Below are positions 2,525-11,577 of a stretch of DNA of 15,212 nucleotides, in pieces. The stretch lies in contig JAHJCU010000010.1 in assembly GCA_018812925.1 (NCBI GenBank), positions 1-15,212 of the forward strand. Reading direction: 5' to 3'. The notes under the pieces were generated by a model, which saw only the letters and a program-made list of their open reading frames with translations, did not search any database and was not told the DNA's origin. Origin of the DNA: Candidatus Omnitrophota bacterium. GTDB taxonomy: Bacteria > CAIJMQ01. A program made the position numbers and the translations under genes. Numbering within the stretch: the first letter of the stretch is position 1; the number at the start of each line of letters is the position of its first letter.

Positions 2525-2998
2525 TTACCACCGAAAGTGAGCAAAAGCTCTGTTAGCTTCTGCCATTTTATGCATATCTTCTCTTTTCTTCACACTAGAT
2601 CCTTCTTTTTTATGAGCTTGCATTATTTCCTCTGCTAATTTTGCCTCCATAGCTTTACCCTTCCTGCCTCTTGCATAATCAATAATCCATCTCATTCCTA
2701 AAGCAATGCTTCTATCGGGCCTAACTTCTATCGGGACCTGATAAGTAGCGCCTCCAATTCTTCGCGCCTTAAGTTCTACTTTAGGCTGGACATTCTTTAA
2801 AGCTTTTTTAAAAACTTCCAAAGGAGGTTCTTCTTTTACTTTCTGCTCAATTATGCTAAAAGCTCCATAAACTATATCTTCCGCTTTACTCTTTTTACCA
2901 TCAAACATTATTTTATTGATAAATTTTGCAATTAAAGTATTGCGGTATTTGGTATCTACCTGTGCTATTCTTTTCTTTGCCCCTTTTTTTCTACCCAT
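2525..2998 (-). CDS. rpsG: 30S ribosomal protein S7 (157 aa)
   Basis: S7 is a primary 16S rRNA binding protein that nucleates assembly of the 30S head and lies near the E site. The protein starts MGRKKGAKKR and contains the family hallmarks FINKIMFDGKKSKAE, GGATYQVPIEVRP and the C-terminal EANRAFAHFRW. Its length matches the usual 156 residues. The ATG at 2998 is preceded by GTGAGGACAT, which holds a reasonable Shine-Dalgarno. In E. coli S7 is the autogenous repressor of the str operon and acts in the rpsL-rpsG gap. Here that gap is almost entirely a palindromic repeat (3019-3088), so the control site, if kept, would have to lie in or overlap it. Confidence 0.98.
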   Translation of the reverse strand: MGRKKGAKKRIAQVDTKYRNTLIAKFINKIMFDGKKSKAEDIVYGAFSIIEQKVKEEPPLEVFKKALKNVQPKVELKARRIGGATYQVPIEVRPDRSIALGMRWIIDYARGRKGKAMEAKLAEEIMQAHKKEGSSVKKREDMHKMAEANRAFAHFRW

Positions 2999-3018
2999 AT
3001 GTCCTCACTTTGTTCGGA

Positions 3019-3088
3019 TAGCAGACAACAGATATCAAACGACAGAAATCAGATTTTCCGTCCTCTGTTCTCTGCCTTCTGTTTTCTG
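3019..3088 (-). repeat. 70-bp palindromic array of ten 7-bp units between rpsL and rpsG
   Basis: Read on the minus strand immediately after the rpsL TGA, the spacer divides exactly into ten heptads: CAGAAAA, CAGAAGG, CAGAGAA, CAGAGGA, CGGAAAA, then TCTGATT, TCTGTCG, TTTGATA, TCTGTTG, TCTGCTA. The first five are CAGANNN-like and the last five are TCTGNNN-like, so the two halves are inverted complements. Alternative foldings are possible: GACAGAAA (whose first two bases are the end of the rpsL stop) pairs perfectly with TTTCTGTC (3041-3048), or GCAGAGAACAGA pairs with TCTGTTGTCTGC with one mismatch. It leaves just 20 nt, including the Shine-Dalgarno, before the rpsG start. Confidence 0.8.
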
Positions 3089-3463
3089 TCATTTACTCTC
3101 TCTCTTAGTTCCATATTTTGAACGCGATTGCTTTCTATTTTCTGTGCCACCTGCGTCCAATACTCCTCGCACTATGTGATATCTTACGCCCGGCAAATCT
3201 TTAACTCTGCCGCCCCTAACAATCACGATGGAATGCTCCTGCAAATTATGTCCTTCCCCCGGTATATAAGCGGAAATTTCTTTGCCCGTAATTAAACGAA
3301 CTTTTGCAACCTTCCTCAATGCTGAATTGGGTTTCTTAGGAGTCATAGTAAAAACTCTTGTGCACACTCCCCTTTTTAGCGGAGAAAGTCCCAATGCCGG
3401 AGCTTTACTTTTTCTTTTAAGACGATTCCTACCTTTTTTTACTAGTTGATTAAGTGTCGGCAT
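3089..3463 (-). CDS. rpsL: 30S ribosomal protein S12 (124 aa)
   Basis: S12 sits at the 30S/50S interface beside the decoding centre and affects accuracy. The protein begins [12 protein letters not shown] and has [15 protein letters not shown] and [10 protein letters not shown], then [13 protein letters not shown]. The lysines equivalent to E. coli K42 and K87, whose mutation gives streptomycin resistance, are both present, so the streptomycin-sensitive form is expected. The aspartate that is methylthiolated in E. coli (in KDLPG) is also present. The ATG at 3463 lies inside rpoBC, giving a 14-nt overlap. A good Shine-Dalgarno (GAGGTGAT, plus 3469-3476) lies in the last codons of rpoBC, so S12 translation is probably coupled to the polymerase. 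The TGA stop merges into the heptad palindrome. Confidence 0.98.
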
Positions 3464-6400
3464 TTTTTATCACCTCAATTTCCCTGTATTTCTGCAAACC
3501 TGTTCCTGCAGGGATTAGTTTACCAATCATTAGGTTTTCTTTCAAGCCCTTAAGCTCATCTTTTCTTCCAAAAATTGCTGATCTGGTCAAGACTCTGGGC
3601 GTCTCCTGAAATGAAGCCGCAGATATAAACGAAGGAGAAGCCAACGAAGCCTTTGTAATCCCCAAAACAAGAGGACGTCCCTTTGCAGGCTTACCGCCTC
3701 CGGAAGAAACAACTCTCTCGTTTTCCTTCTGGAAATCTCCCTTTTCTATCTGTTCTCCCCAAAGGAAAGATGTGTCCCCTGGGTCTTCTATTTGAACTTT
3801 CATAAGCATCTGTCTGATAATAATTTCTATGTGCTTATCGTTTATTTTGACTCCTTGCAATCTATAAACTTCTTGTATTTCATTAAGAAGATATTGTTGC
3901 AACTTTCTTTCCCCTTCAATTCTCAAAATTTCCTGAGTTACAGCAGGACCATCAGTTAATTTCTGTCCGGCAGTAACCCAATCCCCAACATCTACTTCAA
4001 TATGCTTGCCATGTGGAACAGCATATCTTCTTGTTTCATTTGCCCCCTCGATAACAATATCTCTGACACTGCCTTCCATAACGATTTCTTTAACGTTTCC
4101 ATCTATTTCTGTCACAATAGCAGGATTCTTGGGTTTTCTGGCTTCAAATAATTCTGCTATTCTGGGCAGTCCCCCGGTAATATCCGTTGCTTTTACAACT
4201 TCACGAGGTGTTTTTGCAAGAAGAGTCCCAATTTCTATTTTCTCATCTACATTAACCGTTATATGCGCGTTTGTAGGCAAAGGATAATATCTAGCCTGAC
4301 CAGAATAATCATCCCCGCTTCGACTTACCGTCTTTGACGATGTGGGTCTTACTATTATCTGCGGATGTAACGCTCCGCGATGTTCAATAACAACCTTTTC
4401 TACGATATTGGTCTCTCGATTTAATTCTTCTTTCATCGTCAGACCTTTAATAAGGTCTTTGAACTCAACTTTTCCTTTTATTTCGGAAAGTAATGGACGA
4501 GTGTAGGGATCCCAACGAGCTATAACCTCTTTTGCTTTTACTTTCTGACCGTCGCTGACTTCGAGAAAACTTCCTACATTTATTGAATAATTTTCTATTT
4601 TATTGCCTTCTTCATCTTCTAATAAAATACTGCCATTTCTATTTAAAACCATCAATTTCCCATCGCTATTCTTTGTTACATTTAAGTTTTGAAATCTTAT
4701 AACACCATCTGCTTGGGCAGTATAATGCGTTTCTCCCACTATTCTTGAAGCTGTACCGCCTATATGGAAAGTTCTAAGCGTAAGCTGCGTTCCCGGCTCG
4801 CCGATAGATTGAGCCGCCATTATTCCAACTGCTTGCCCCAGAGCAACCTTTGTTCCGGTAGCCAAGTCTTTTCCGTAACACTTTGCACAGATACCTTCTT
4901 TACTTTGACATGTTAAAACCGAACGGATAGAAACTTCTTCTATGCCGGCCTCTTGGATTGCATCCGCAATTTCTTCGGTTATTTCATCGCCAGCCTTTGC
5001 AATAATTTCATCCAACAAAAGCAATTTTATATCGTCTATCGTTGTCCTTCCAATAATTCTTTCTTTGAGAGGAATGAAATTTCTTCCGCCTAATTCCAAT
5101 GGTTTTGCAATTATTCCATTTACCGTGCCACAATCTTCTTCTCTTACTATTACATTCTGAGCAACATCCACCAATCTTCTCGTCAAATAACCCGCTTGAG
5201 CTGTTTTCAAAGCAGTATCAGCCAAACCTTTTCTACCGCCGTGAGTCGATATGAAATATTCCAAAACAGATAGACCTTCCCTAAAGTTTGTAGTAATCGG
5301 GAATTCAATAATTTCTCCCACAGCTCCCGTCAATTGTTTACGCGGACGAGCTATTAACCCTCTCATTCCTCCCAATTGTCTTATCTGTTGAGCACTACCT
5401 CGCGCTTCAGATTCCATTATTAGAAGAACAGGATTAAAGGGATGCTTCTTCAATTCCGAAAACATATTTTGAGCGACTTCATCACCAACACGACTCCAAA
5501 CATCCAACAGCTTGTTGTATCTTTCTCCGTAGGTAATAATTCCTTCGTGATATTGTCTTTCAATTTTCCCTACTTCTTTGCGCGCTTTGTCAATCTTTAA
5601 CCACTTATCAGGCGGGACTAAAACATCGGTTATACCTATAGAAAGTCCACCTATCGTTGCATAATGAAAACCAATTTCTTTTAAGTTATCAAGTAACTCA
5701 CAAGTTGCTTCCTTGCCAAATTGTTTAATATATGAATCGACGAAAGAGGATAATTTACTCTTAGTCATCCCTTCATTCACGAATTCCAAACCATCAGGCA
5801 AGACTTCGTTAAAGATAGCTCTTCCCGTAGTGGTTTTCAATTTATTACTTTTTGTATGCAATCTAAAACGCTCGGGGATTCTTAATAGCATCGGAGTATG
5901 AAGTTTTATTTCTCCTAATTCATACGCGAACTTCGCTTCTTCTGTGCTGGAGAAAAATCTCAAATTCTCTTCCTTGATTGTTTGGCCTGCTTTGTCGGAA
6001 ACAACCGAGCTTGAATCCATCTTTGTCAGATAATATAAACCCCACACCATATCTTGAGACGGAAGTAATATTGGAGATCCGTCTGAAGGACGGAATAAAT
6101 TATTTGTCGACAGAATAAGCATTTCAGCCTCAAGAAGTGTCTCCATAAATAAAGGGACATGAACACTCATCGTGTCTCCGTCAAAGTCAGCGCCAAAAGC
6201 AGCGCACACCATCGGATGCAATTTTATCGCTTTACTCTCGGTAAGTTGGGGTCTAAAAGCTTGAATTCCCAATCTATGCAAAGTAGGCGCGCGATTTAAA
6301 AGCACAAAATGATTCTTCACTACTTCCGACAACGCTTCCCAGACTTCTACGGTGCGTCTTTCCATTAATTTTTTGCCTGCTTTTATGGTATGGAAATAAC

Positions 6401-9400
6401 CCTTTTCTTTTAAATATCTTATTATGAAAGGTTGGAATAATTCCAAAGCCATTTCTTTGGGAATACCGCATTCGTCTAACTTCAGTTTTGGATCCACAAC
6501 AATTACAGACCTACCTGAATAATCAACTCTCTTACCAAGTAGATTTTGACGGAAACGTCCCTGCTTACCTCCAAGTGTATCAGCCAAAGATTTTAGAGGT
6601 CTTCCTTGAGTTCCACCTACAACAACTCTGCCCCTCCTACCATTATCAAAAAGCGCATCAATAGCTTCCTGCAACATTCTCTTTTCATTTCTTAAAATTA
6701 TTTCGGGTGCATCAAGTTCTATTAATCTCTTTAGTCGATTATTTCTATTGATGACTCTGCGATATAAATCGTTTAAATCTGAGCTTGCAAATCCGCCCTT
6801 ATCCAGAGGAACAAGAGGTCTTAAGTTCGGAGGAATAACGGGTATTCGGTCTAAAATCATCCAATCCGGAGAATTACCCGAAGTCATAAACGCTTCTACT
6901 ATTTTTCTTCTCTTGTTTATTTTTCTTCTCGCCACTTGAGATGAAGTGCCCTTCTCTTTTTTCTGCAACCCGTCGCGTAATTTTTCCAAATTCAATTCCT
7001 GCAATAAACGTTTTACAGCCGGGGCCCCCATTCCCACTTCAAAAGTATCTCCGTATTTTTGTCTATATTCTTCAAGTTCCGAATCGGTTAAAATTTGTTG
7101 TCTTGCCAAAGAAGTTTTTCCCGGCTCAAAAACAACCCAAGAATCATAATAAATAAGTTTTTCCAAGTTGGGCAGAGTCATATCCAAAAGCGTTCCCATA
7201 ACAGAAGGAATAACCCTAAACATCCATATATGCGCTACAGGAGCAACAAGTTCTATGTGCCCCATCCTATCGCGCCTTACACTGGATTCTGTAACTTCAA
7301 CGCCACATCTGTCGCAGACAACTCCTTTATGTTTTATTTTCTTATATTTGCCGCAATAACATTCCCAATCTTTAGTTGGACCAAATATTTTTTCGCAGAA
7401 AAGTCCGCCTTTTTCGGCTCTGAAAGTGCGATAATTTACAGTTTCGGGCTTTTTTACTTCTCCTTTTGACCAAGACCTTATTAATTGAGGCGAAGCCAAT
7501 CCCAATCCAATACTTTTTATTTCGGAAGCCTCATTTTTTCTTTCTTTATTTAACCACTGCCAATTACTGCTATCCCATGTTGATTCCTTATCCTTTTCTA
7601 TTTTAAAATCAAGACAAAGACCTTGCAGTTCTTTTACTAAAACATTAAAAGACTCCGGGATTCCCGAAGTTAAAGTATTCTCGCCTTTGACAATTGCTTC
7701 ATAAGTTCTAGTCCTTCCTTCTATGTCATCACTTTTTACTGTTAACATCTCTTGAAGAATATGCGCGGCTCCATAGGCTTCTAAAGCCCAAACTTCCATC
7801 TCTCCAAATCTTTGTCCTCCCATCCGAGCTTTACCACCTAACGGCTGTTGTGTAACCAAGGAATAAGGGCCAATAGATCTGGCGTGAATTTTATCTTCAA
7901 CCAAATGGTCAAGTTTAAGCAAGTATATATAACCGACTGTTATCCTATGGTTGAACGGTTCGCCTGTTCTCCCGTCAAATAAAACAGCTTTACCATCTTC
8001 CGGTAAACTGGCTTCTTTCAAACAGTTCTGTATTTCTTCTTCTGTTGCTCCATTAAATACAGGAGTTATAGCTTCAAAACCCAAAGCTTTTGCCGCCCAT
8101 CCAAGGTGTGTTTCAAGGATTTGCCCCAAATTCATTCTGGAAGGAACACCTAAAGGATTTAGAACAACATCTACTGGCGTTCCATCGGAAAGATACGGCA
8201 TATCTTCTTCAGGAAGAACCTTAGCGATTACTCCCTTATTCCCGTGACGTCCAGAAAGTTTATCTCCTTCTTGAAGTTCTCTTTTGCTGGCTACATATAC
8301 CTTTACTAATTTAATAACTCCAGGAGATAATTCTTCTACCTGAATATAATCTTTTATTTCTTGCGTAGCTTCTTTTTCTATAGCTTTCTTTCTTTCTGAA
8401 AACTCCTCTAAACAATCACCCAGTTTTTCGTTTGTTTTAGCATCTTTTACTTTTATACTCTTTAATGTTTTAAAGTCGAGTTGGTTTAACAAGTTTGCCG
8501 ATAAGATTCCTCCAGCTTTTATTTGCAGCCCTTTGTCACTTTTCGGGGAATCCGTTTTATTAGCAGGTTTAATTTTAATTGCCTTCTGACTTTTTTTATC
8601 CTTAATAATTTCCCTGATTTTACTCAACGCTCCCATCTCTAAACTTTCCAACAAAGCGTCTTTTTTTCTTTTAATGGATTGCACCTCTGAGGAACTGTCC
8701 TTTAATCGCTTCTTATCTTCTTCTTCTCTGGAAAAGATTTTAGTATCTATTACGACGCCTTCAGTGCCAGGCGGGATTTTCATAGAAGTGTTAAGCACAT
8801 CACCAGCTTTTTCTCCAAAGATAGCTCTAAGCAATTTCTCTTCAGAAGTAAGCACAGACTCGCCTTTTGGCGTAACCTTGCCCACAAGAATATCACCAGC
8901 CTTTACATAGGCACCTGTTCTTATTACACCATCGCTGTCTAAATCCTTTAAAGCCTCTTCGGAAACATTGGGTATATCCGGAGTAATTTCTTCTCTACCT
9001 AATTTCGTTTCCCTACATTCAACCTCAAATTCTTCTATGTGAATTGATGTATAGGCATCTTCCTTAATTATTTTCTCCGAAACTAAAATAGCATCTTCAA
9101 AGTTATATCCTTCCCAAGGCATGAAAGCTACCAACACATTTCTGCCCAAAGATAATTTCCCATTTTTTATAGCAGGACCATCAGCTAAAATATCTCCTTT
9201 TTTCACTTTTTGCCCCAATTTAACTATGGGTCTTTGATGAACACATGTGGATTGATTTGACCTTATAAAATTTTTCAAAGGATAGTAATCCGTCTCATCT
9301 AAAAGCAAATCTTCGGATTTAGCACCAGAAACTACTTTTACTATTATGCTATCGCCAGAAACACTATCTATGATACCGTCTCTCTTTGCTAAAACTGTTG

Positions 9401-11417
9401 TTCCCGATTCCTTCGCCACTACCTGCTCCATTCCCGTCTGAACCAAAGGAGGTTCAGGATTCATAAGAGGAACAGCTTGCCTCTGCATATTGGAACCCAT
9501 TAAAGCTCTGTTGGAATCATCGTGTTCTAAAAACGGGATTAAACAAGCAGATATGGAAAGTGTTTGAATCGGATCTACATCCATGTAGTTAACATCTGCG
9601 CTAGGCATAAAATGATAATCGCTTTTATATCTTACCAATGCTCTATCGGTCGCTAAATATCCTTTCTTATCAACCTGCGCATTCGCCTGAGCTATAATAA
9701 ATTTGTCTTCTTCATCGGCCGTAAGATAATCAACATTATTCGTAACCTTTTTGTTCTCCACTTTTCTGTAAGGCGCTTCCAATAAGCCCAAACTATTTAT
9801 GCGAGCATAAGTAGCCAAAGATGTTATCAATCCAATGTTTTGGCCTTCAGGAGTTTCTATTGGACAAATACGACCATAATGAGTAGGATGAACGTCTCTT
9901 ACTTCTATTCCGGCTCTTTCCCTAGTTAAACCTTCAGGACCTAAGGCAGACAATCTTCTTTTATGAGTCAATTCAGCCAACGGATTGGTTTGATCCATGA
10001 ATTGAGAAAGTTGGGATGAAATGAAAAATTCCATTAAAGAACTATTTATGAGTCGGGGATTTATTAATGTATGAGGCATTAAATCTTCCGCTTTGCCCAT
10101 AAGCAATCTTTCGTGAATTGAGCGAGTAAGTTTAATAAACGAGGGGCGAAGTTGATTCTCCATTAACTCCCCGATACTTCTAACTCTACGATTACCGAGA
10201 CGGTCGATGTCATCTACATTAGATTTACCCATTTGTAAATTAATCAACTCTTTTACTACAGCAACTATATCGGTAATAGTCAAGACTCTCTTGGATAGAG
10301 GAACATCTAAGTTTAATCTTGTATTTAATCTATGTCTTCCAATCTTGCCCAAATCAAATCTTGTCTTATCAAACAAAATCCCTCGCAAATAAGTTTCAGC
10401 AGTATTTGATTCGAAAGGTGTACCTGATCGTATACGAGAATAAATTTGAGTTAACGCTTCTTCTTTGCTCTGCGTGCGATCTTTCCTAAGAGTATTTATT
10501 ATCAACGCAGTAGCGTCTTTATCTTTTATAATTTTTATTTTGTGCATACCAAAAGAAGAAAGAGTTTTAAGCAAAAGTAGAGAAATTTCTTGTTTACTTT
10601 CGGCTATTTTTTGTCCCGTTTTTGCGTCAACTACATCTTCCGCCAATATTTGCCCTATTAACTTTTTATCAAAACCCTTTTTAGTTAAATTTATTTCCTC
10701 TATTTCACAGAAAAGCTTTATTATATCTGCATCTTTTGGATAGCCTAAAGCCCTAAAAATCACCGTGCCCAACATCCTTCTACGCGGACCTATTACACCA
10801 TATAAGAGATCGTTATTGTCGGTCTCAAATTCCATCCAAGTGCCTCTGTCCGGAACTATTCTCGCAACAAAAATTTCTTTGCCTTTCTTCTGCCCACCAG
10901 ACTCAAAAAATGCTCCAGGAGAACGATGTAATTGACAAGCAATAACCCTTTCTATGCCATTTATAATAAAAGTTCCTCTCTGCGTCATAACAGGAAAATC
11001 ACAAAGATAAACTTCCTCTTCTCTAATGCTTTCTACTTCTAATCCTTTCTTAACTTCGCCGCGCTCCACAGACTTACGTCTGGTAGATATAGGAACAGGA
11101 TTTTTATAAATACTAAGCTTTAATTTTAACTTCAGAGGGAAAGAATAGGTAATGCCTCTTCTTATGCATTCTGTAACACTATAACGAGGACTACCCATAG
11201 TGTAACTTCCAAACTCGAGAGAAAATTTCCCATTACTGGCAATAATCGGAGACAATTCATTAAGGAGAGATTGCAATCCTTCATTCTTTCTTTTTAAAGG
11301 GAGCGCATCAGATTGAAGAAAAGAATTAAAAGATTGATTCTGTATCTCCACTAAATTGGGTAATCCCATCACTAAAGGGATCTTTTTAAAATTTCTTACA
11401 TTAGTAGATGTAAGCAT
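3450..11417 (-). CDS. rpoBC: Fused RNA polymerase beta-beta' subunit (about 2655 aa)
   Basis: One uninterrupted frame encodes both large catalytic subunits of RNA polymerase. Residues 1 to about 1274 are RpoB: the rifampicin cluster with D475, H485 and S490 (E. coli D516, H526, S531) in the sensitive state, [13 protein letters not shown], and [12 protein letters not shown]. About 28 polar residues (1275-1302) form the linker. RpoC begins at IGLGLASP (1303). It has the Zn1 cysteines C1353, C1355, C1368 and C1371 with E. coli spacing; the Mg-binding D1744, D1746 and D1748; and Zn2 cysteines C2096, C2170, C2177 and C2180. The trigger loop is QLTLRTFH (His at 2218), followed by an SI3-like region. 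The catalytic loop reads GADFDGD, not NADFDGD. I chose the ATG at 11417 because AGGGAGGA (11428-11435) precedes it. The frame stays open to a TTG at 11516, but that would translate a palindromic repeat. The stop overlaps rpsL by 14 nt. Confidence 0.97.
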
Positions 11418-11440
11418 ACGCGCTTTTTCCTCCCTTTTTA

Positions 11441-11466
11441 CCTGCTCGCCTCGCAAGCAGGCGGGT
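11441..11466. repeat. GC-rich palindromic intergenic repeat, copy 1
   Basis: The plus strand reads CCTGCTCGCCTCGC followed by AAGCAGGCGGGT. CCTGCT pairs with AGCAGG as a 6-bp stem. About 22 of the first 25 bases match copy 2 at 11535-11560. It lies 24 bp upstream of the rpoBC start and stands out as GC-rich in AT-rich surroundings. The shared 15-base core TCGCAAGCAGGCGGG is identical in both copies, which suggests a dispersed repeat family rather than chance. Confidence 0.7.
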
Positions 11467-11534
11467 TTGATTAAAAAATCAATATCACGCCAAATTCCCT
11501 TTAAATTAAAAACCAAGGGGAAACGTTAAGGACA

Positions 11535-11560
11535 CCTGCCCACTTCGCAAGCAGGCGGGA
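11535..11560. repeat. GC-rich palindromic intergenic repeat, copy 2
   Basis: The plus strand reads CCTGCCCACTTCGC followed by AAGCAGGCGGGA. It differs from copy 1 at three positions near the left end (6, 8 and 10). CCTGCC can pair with GGCGGG (one T-G wobble) or CCTGC with GCAGG, so it can form a hairpin. It lies 17 bp beyond the rplL stop codon, in the rplL-rpoBC gap. Confidence 0.7.
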
Positions 11561-11577
11561 ATGTGATAATTATTTAT

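Follow-up and report, generated by a model that had tools for sequence, protein, structure and literature searches.

A dispersed, small palindromic repeat occupies the spacer between the ribosomal protein genes rpsL and rpsG, as one copy among many. Its units are degenerate heptads, WCAGANN for the 5' arm and the complement for the 3' arm. The repeat class to which the element belongs is real, although little is understood about it, and a ribosomal-protein switch is not supported. A dispersed palindromic intergenic element had been one proposal of an earlier note on this DNA, and many copies have indeed been found in the same genome, in its congeners and in other phyla.

The heptad palindrome between rpsL and rpsG

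The stretch of 15,212 nucleotides that was analysed, hereafter the window, contains the following features at this locus:

3089..3463, minus strand: rpsL (ribosomal protein S12), the upstream gene
3089..3091, minus strand: TGA stop codon of rpsL, abutting the first CAGA unit
3019..3088, minus strand: heptad palindrome of ten in-phase 7-nt units (TRF, inverted-repeat search, shuffles and direct reading)
3054..3088, minus strand: purine-rich 5' arm, in sense direction CAGAAAA CAGAAGG CAGAGAA CAGAGGA CGGAAAA
3019..3053, minus strand: pyrimidine-rich 3' arm, in sense direction TCTGATT TCTGTCG TTTGATA TCTGTTG TCTGCTA
3003..3017, minus strand: CCGAACAAAGTGAGG, putative Shine-Dalgarno cassette (GAGG) just past the 3' arm, found behind other heptad elements of the genus as well
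2525..2998, minus strand: rpsG (ribosomal protein S7), the downstream gene (sequence and gene order)

The spacer comprises 90 bases (2999-3088) and both flanking genes are located on the minus strand. On the plus strand, positions 3019-3088 divide exactly into ten heptads, five NNNCAGA followed by five NNNTCTG; two of the units (CAAA and TCCG, plus strand) each deviate from the core at a single base. The claim that five CAGA-type and five TCTG-type heptads occupy 70 of the 90 spacer bases was confirmed by 38 matches at the 40 core positions, while the best of 20,000 mononucleotide-shuffled spacers reached 24. Moreover, TRF and inverted-repeat searches independently recovered the same arms, and in the transcript the array begins right after the rpsL stop codon, as the earlier note had stated. 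The predicted fold of the element's RNA is a single long hairpin interrupted by internal mismatches (-28.9 kcal/mol, z -3.3). No Rfam family matched the element at the gathering threshold. The C-terminus of the rpsL product is KRESK in this genome vs KKG in both congeners.

Further upstream in the window (3450-11516, minus strand), rpoB and rpoC appear as a single continuous ORF of 2688 amino acids, which would encode a fused beta-beta' subunit. In the spacer upstream of this ORF (11418-11577), a GC-rich sequence is present in two similar versions, CCCGCCTGCTTGCGAAGTGGGCAGG and CCCGCCTGCTTGCGAGGCGAGCAGG, and the orthologous spacer of one congener (G002) lacks both copies in that form.

Dispersal and turnover of heptad arrays

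This genome (G000) was compared with two congeners (G001 and G002), a family relative (G003), class relatives including G004 and G005, and an acidobacterium (G045). With the spacer and its flanks as nucleotide query, eight further places were detected in G000 at E<=0.001. In the search for heptad arrays that the earlier note had suggested, the pattern CAGANNNCAGANNNCAGA, which stands for three CAGANNN units, gave 108 matches in G000, 155 in G001 and 147 in G002, overlapping matches being counted several times, as compared to 3 in the family relative and 0-1 in each of three class relatives. In the class relatives, TAGACNN arrays occur in place of CAGA. In G004 and G005, the matches to such TAGACNN heptads number in the hundreds (L120-L124), and heptads of the TACTNN type lie nearby.

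A catalogue of the genus, made from the stretches that were read, contains 62 arrays, of which 23 have two arms and 39 one arm, and the CAGA arm comes first in every two-arm element. CAGA is not the sole motif. Many heptad motifs are present in the spacers of G000, because intergenic spacers without a CAGA pair show an excess of self-matches at lags 7, 14 and 21 (0.33, 0.32 and 0.32 vs about 0.285) and the coding sequence shows none at these lags; counts of the non-CAGA motif families rest on stretches and not on the whole genome.

Eighteen of the 62 catalogued arrays fall in ORFs. The clearest case is a carB gene of G000 and G001, which encodes 21 additional residues relative to the G003 orthologue (63 nt, corresponding to nine heptads, without a stop codon), and the inserted peptides read QITDFSQQ...PLSSE in G000 and QITDSRQQ...PLSSD in G001. 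G000 has two carB genes, one of them split (L102 1729-3450, L103 1267-4578), and the second likewise contains a heptad array, so that both are affected in the oligomerisation-domain region. In a class-I tRNA synthetase, the position of the arrays is shared by G000 and G001, and further arrays were found in genes for a radical-SAM UPF0004 protein (MiaB-like), a glutamine amidotransferase and the C-terminus of ribosomal protein L17. No functional theme emerged among the sampled neighbour genes of the elements.

The arrays turn over between close relatives. The rpsL identity to the congeners is 93-98% (98% for the G001 protein), and G001 and G000 are 82-98% identical in aligned gene blocks and about 95% in one large region. 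Comparison of the rpsL-rpsG spacer between close relatives, which had also been proposed, revealed no conservation, the congeners having other heptad motifs at this site: a repeat pattern of the AAATTC / GGATTT type in G001 and an AGTAGNN palindrome in G002. The spacer measures 38 nt in G003 and 13-17 nt in the class relatives. The element is not tied to the rpsL-rpsG locus. When 30 orthologous spacers were compared between G000 and G001, several element-free ones proved to be 0.83-0.94 identical, and others have been replaced outright, for instance 29 nt vs a 103-nt AGACC palindrome, 2 nt vs 119 nt, and a GTAATTN palindrome vs a CAGA palindrome of G001 with a second palindrome in its loop (orthologue of L105 7491). 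Presence/absence pairs thus exist between the congeners, with flanks too diverged to place exact ends; among the copies compared, neither target-site duplications nor fixed element ends were found.

Two other kinds of palindrome were observed in G001. One, located in the spacers orthologous to L260 740-754, L105 2949-3089 and L105 7491-7574, consists of GAAATACAATG-like units of roughly 11 nt and is nested inside a CAGA palindrome in two cases. The other, GTCATTGCGAG...CTCGCAATGACA, is present in G001 (orthologue of L264 2749-2751) and absent from G000; it resembles palindromes known from other bacteria.

Period, polarity and folding of the arrays

In about 1.34 Mb of stretches, most of which were fetched because they hold heptad arrays, 163 palindromic arrays with period 7 were counted, as compared to 3, 9, 8 and 3 with periods 5, 6, 8 and 9 and none with periods 10-12. 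Non-CAGA motifs make up 46 of the 163. GTDB contigs contain at least 119 stretches that have palindromes with the CAGA arm first, the groups represented being Acidobacteria, Omnitrophota, Nitrospirae, Planctomycetes, Chloroflexi, Deltaproteobacteria and further ones. Across 11 genomes, 332 CAGA-first matches (which overlap within elements) stand against no TCTG-first match, and the reversed-pattern control in the same genomes gave 17 AGAC-first and no GTCT-first matches. Viral-labelled contigs, a collection not chosen for heptad arrays, yielded 38 CAGA-first and two TCTG-first stretches; the corresponding counts were five for period 8 and zero for period 6. Moreover, all 19 non-CAGA period-7 palindromes with a clear difference in purine content between the arms are purine-first. 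The polarity was also considered as a property of any hairpin; however, ordinary hairpins lean the same way at 48:21, which is far weaker than in the heptad arrays, and this explanation was rejected.

Copies lie in spacers between co-directional genes, just past stop codons. In the genus, the elements start at a median of 5 nt past the upstream stop and end at a median of 12 nt before the next start, and the median start after the stop codon is 3-5 nt across the sets measured. Intergenic elements with differing arms are in sense orientation in 15 of 17 two-arm cases (15:2) and in 14 of 16 one-arm cases (14:2), as counted with a simple ORF caller and with arm classes defined from the same data. 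Arm composition was also tabulated by transcription direction, which is independent of the arm classes. The arms are much alike at two of the three variable positions, and the third has A88:T9 in the 5' arm vs A38:T48 (complemented) in the 3' arm (Fisher p 9e-12).

Because of this asymmetry at one position, the arms of a genus element are less complementary to each other than arms swapped between elements (0.33 vs 0.40, in 1000 of 1000 shuffles), and the MFE is -23.5 for own arms vs -27.0 for swapped ones. The compensatory changes that the earlier note had recommended looking for, assessed here as arm-to-arm complementarity, were thus not borne out, and a hairpin maintained by covariation was rejected, the arm pairing in the genus being the opposite of compensatory. 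The hairpins of the genus are nevertheless far more stable than shuffled sequence (median folding z about -5, mononucleotide shuffles). In the acidobacterium (40 elements), own arms are more complementary than swapped ones (0.77 vs 0.62) and the loops look unrelated to one another; therefore, it is the arms and not the loops that recur. Across phyla the comparison of own and swapped arms provides no valid evidence, unit usage differing by genome.

The cassette CCGARCRAAGYGAGG, probably a Shine-Dalgarno sequence, follows several genus elements and also heptad arrays of other motifs. The idea that the 3' arm serves to provide stop codons in all three frames was dropped, such stops being present in only 6 of 40 intergenic elements.

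Related repeats and possible explanations

Heptamer repeats are already known, and five-heptad sites that lie on opposite strands and have CTGA as their core were reported in 2009 for one Geobacter genome. According to the passages of that source dealing with them, the "class 3 global regulator binding sites" of G. metallireducens are 16 sequences with five tandem heptanucleotides each and the consensus MTYCTGA (PMC2700814). They resemble the elements in that they are dispersed, are drawn as switching strands and have about five tandem heptads per arm, with arms on opposite strands (five plus five in the window copy). The consensus has the CTG core in common with NNNTCTG; a tentative correspondence beyond this core, judged from the consensus, is seen at YCTG(A), where the 3' arm has TCTG(A/T). 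However, these passages interpret them as regulator sites and describe neither turnover nor a polarity rule nor in-frame insertion. The cyanobacterial STRR and the TAACTGA repeats of Beggiatoaceae likewise have 7-nt units and are dispersed, mostly intergenic and in part close to ribosomal-protein genes (PMC4679880; PMC2408588). The elements share with STRR sequences the degenerate tandem 7-nt units and the dispersed, mainly intergenic location, but STRR and TAACTGA are mainly direct repeats, located in Beggiatoaceae just upstream of starts, whereas inverted arms just past stops are found here. Rickettsia palindromic elements are also small palindromic repeats, some of them in-frame inside genes (PMC10969869), as are the copies in carB, the class-I tRNA synthetase and the MiaB-like gene. 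In contrast, they form families of about 150 bp with a conserved peptide, whereas here the loops and NNN positions vary and there is no whole-element consensus. REP, BIME and REPIN sequences are dispersed intergenic palindromes with high copy number as well; however, REP/REPIN are palindromes of 20-40 bp with a GTAG/CGTC tag and an associated Y1 (RAYT) transposase, whereas the arrays described here span 70-100 bp, have no tag and occur in a carrier, G000, without a match to this transposase. In the open-licence PMC texts consulted, there is no description of four features: occurrence in many phyla, polarity with the purine arm first, exchange of motifs at the same site between close relatives, and in-frame copies in core genes. 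Descriptions may exist elsewhere.

We consider it somewhat more probable than not that the element is a recurrently arising, near-neutral small palindromic repeat, which would be tolerated thanks to the folding of its RNA between stop and start. Turnover, in-frame copies and the lack of a gene theme are better explained by such a repeat than by regulation at this operon. Most copies would be near-neutral or selfish. The hairpin would tuck away the extra 70-100 nt without masking the ribosome-binding site downstream, and the copies might then be trimmed by selection on the mRNA such that the stem is not too perfect and the purine arm is kept away from the next start codon. They may originate when a purine-rich nascent strand slips and is then copied by folding back, or alternatively by some mobility system. 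Two points count against the near-neutral repeat: without fixed ends and with loops that are not conserved between copies, the elements are unlike the products of copy-and-paste, and a conserved function could underlie rules that hold almost universally across phyla.

An S7 autoregulatory site or a multi-register RNA switch specific to this spacer, as the earlier note had envisaged, is scarcely credible. The control region for S7 lies in the rpsL-rpsG spacer of E. coli and several registers of the palindrome can pair, but the spacer is unconserved in the congeners and the family, the same element lies beside many unrelated genes and Rfam gave no match at the gathering threshold; the comparison of spacers largely refutes this idea, which was rejected. 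Mobility of a MITE or REP-like type, driven by a transposase of which the Y1 (RAYT) enzyme is an example, would account for dispersed palindromes and for empty sites between congeners, and is nonetheless very improbable: the units are degenerate and neither fixed ends nor duplications were seen. Moreover, Y1 (PF01797), the only transposase family searched, had no match in G000 (92% complete), with E. coli as positive control, so dependence on RAYT was rejected for this genome; G001 has four matches and G002 two.

The inverted heptads could also form a protein-binding array, one of the options of the earlier note, to which a global regulator would bind cooperatively on DNA or RNA. This agrees with the almost absolute polarity, with the inverted pairs of about five heptads in the class 3 description (PMC2700814, the passages cited above) and with the binding of S1, Csp or Csr that was proposed for TAACTGA repeats in Beggiatoaceae (MacGregor 2015, PMC4679880). 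It is, however, unlikely, given that several unrelated motif families with the same period and polarity in one genus speak against one specific binder, that one site can hold different motifs in different congeners, that copies are in-frame in carB and a tRNA synthetase, and that the neighbouring genes have no theme. Distinctly less probable still is a purely local origin, by 7-nt replication slippage in place and fold-back template switching without dispersal. Loops that differ between copies, the one-armed state of 39 of the 62 genus arrays, the mutual match of own arms in the acidobacterium and the report, as relayed in PMC4679880, that heptads are the commonest class of long simple repeats in most genomes and are tied to polymerase slippage (Mrazek 2007) are in line with it, but slippage alone leaves unexplained the same CAGA core at dozens of sites per genome and in many phyla, as well as a palindrome inside the loop of another.

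Finally, the common length of seven and the purine-first polarity of unrelated motifs across phyla may, as a tentative suggestion, point to one unrecognised generating process or to a ubiquitous nucleic-acid-binding machine that makes or keeps the arrays, including those inside core genes. If both rules hold, they would provide a testable handle on why heptamers are the favoured repeat length of bacteria, and a large class of small elements would be replacing operon spacers and extending core proteins between close species.
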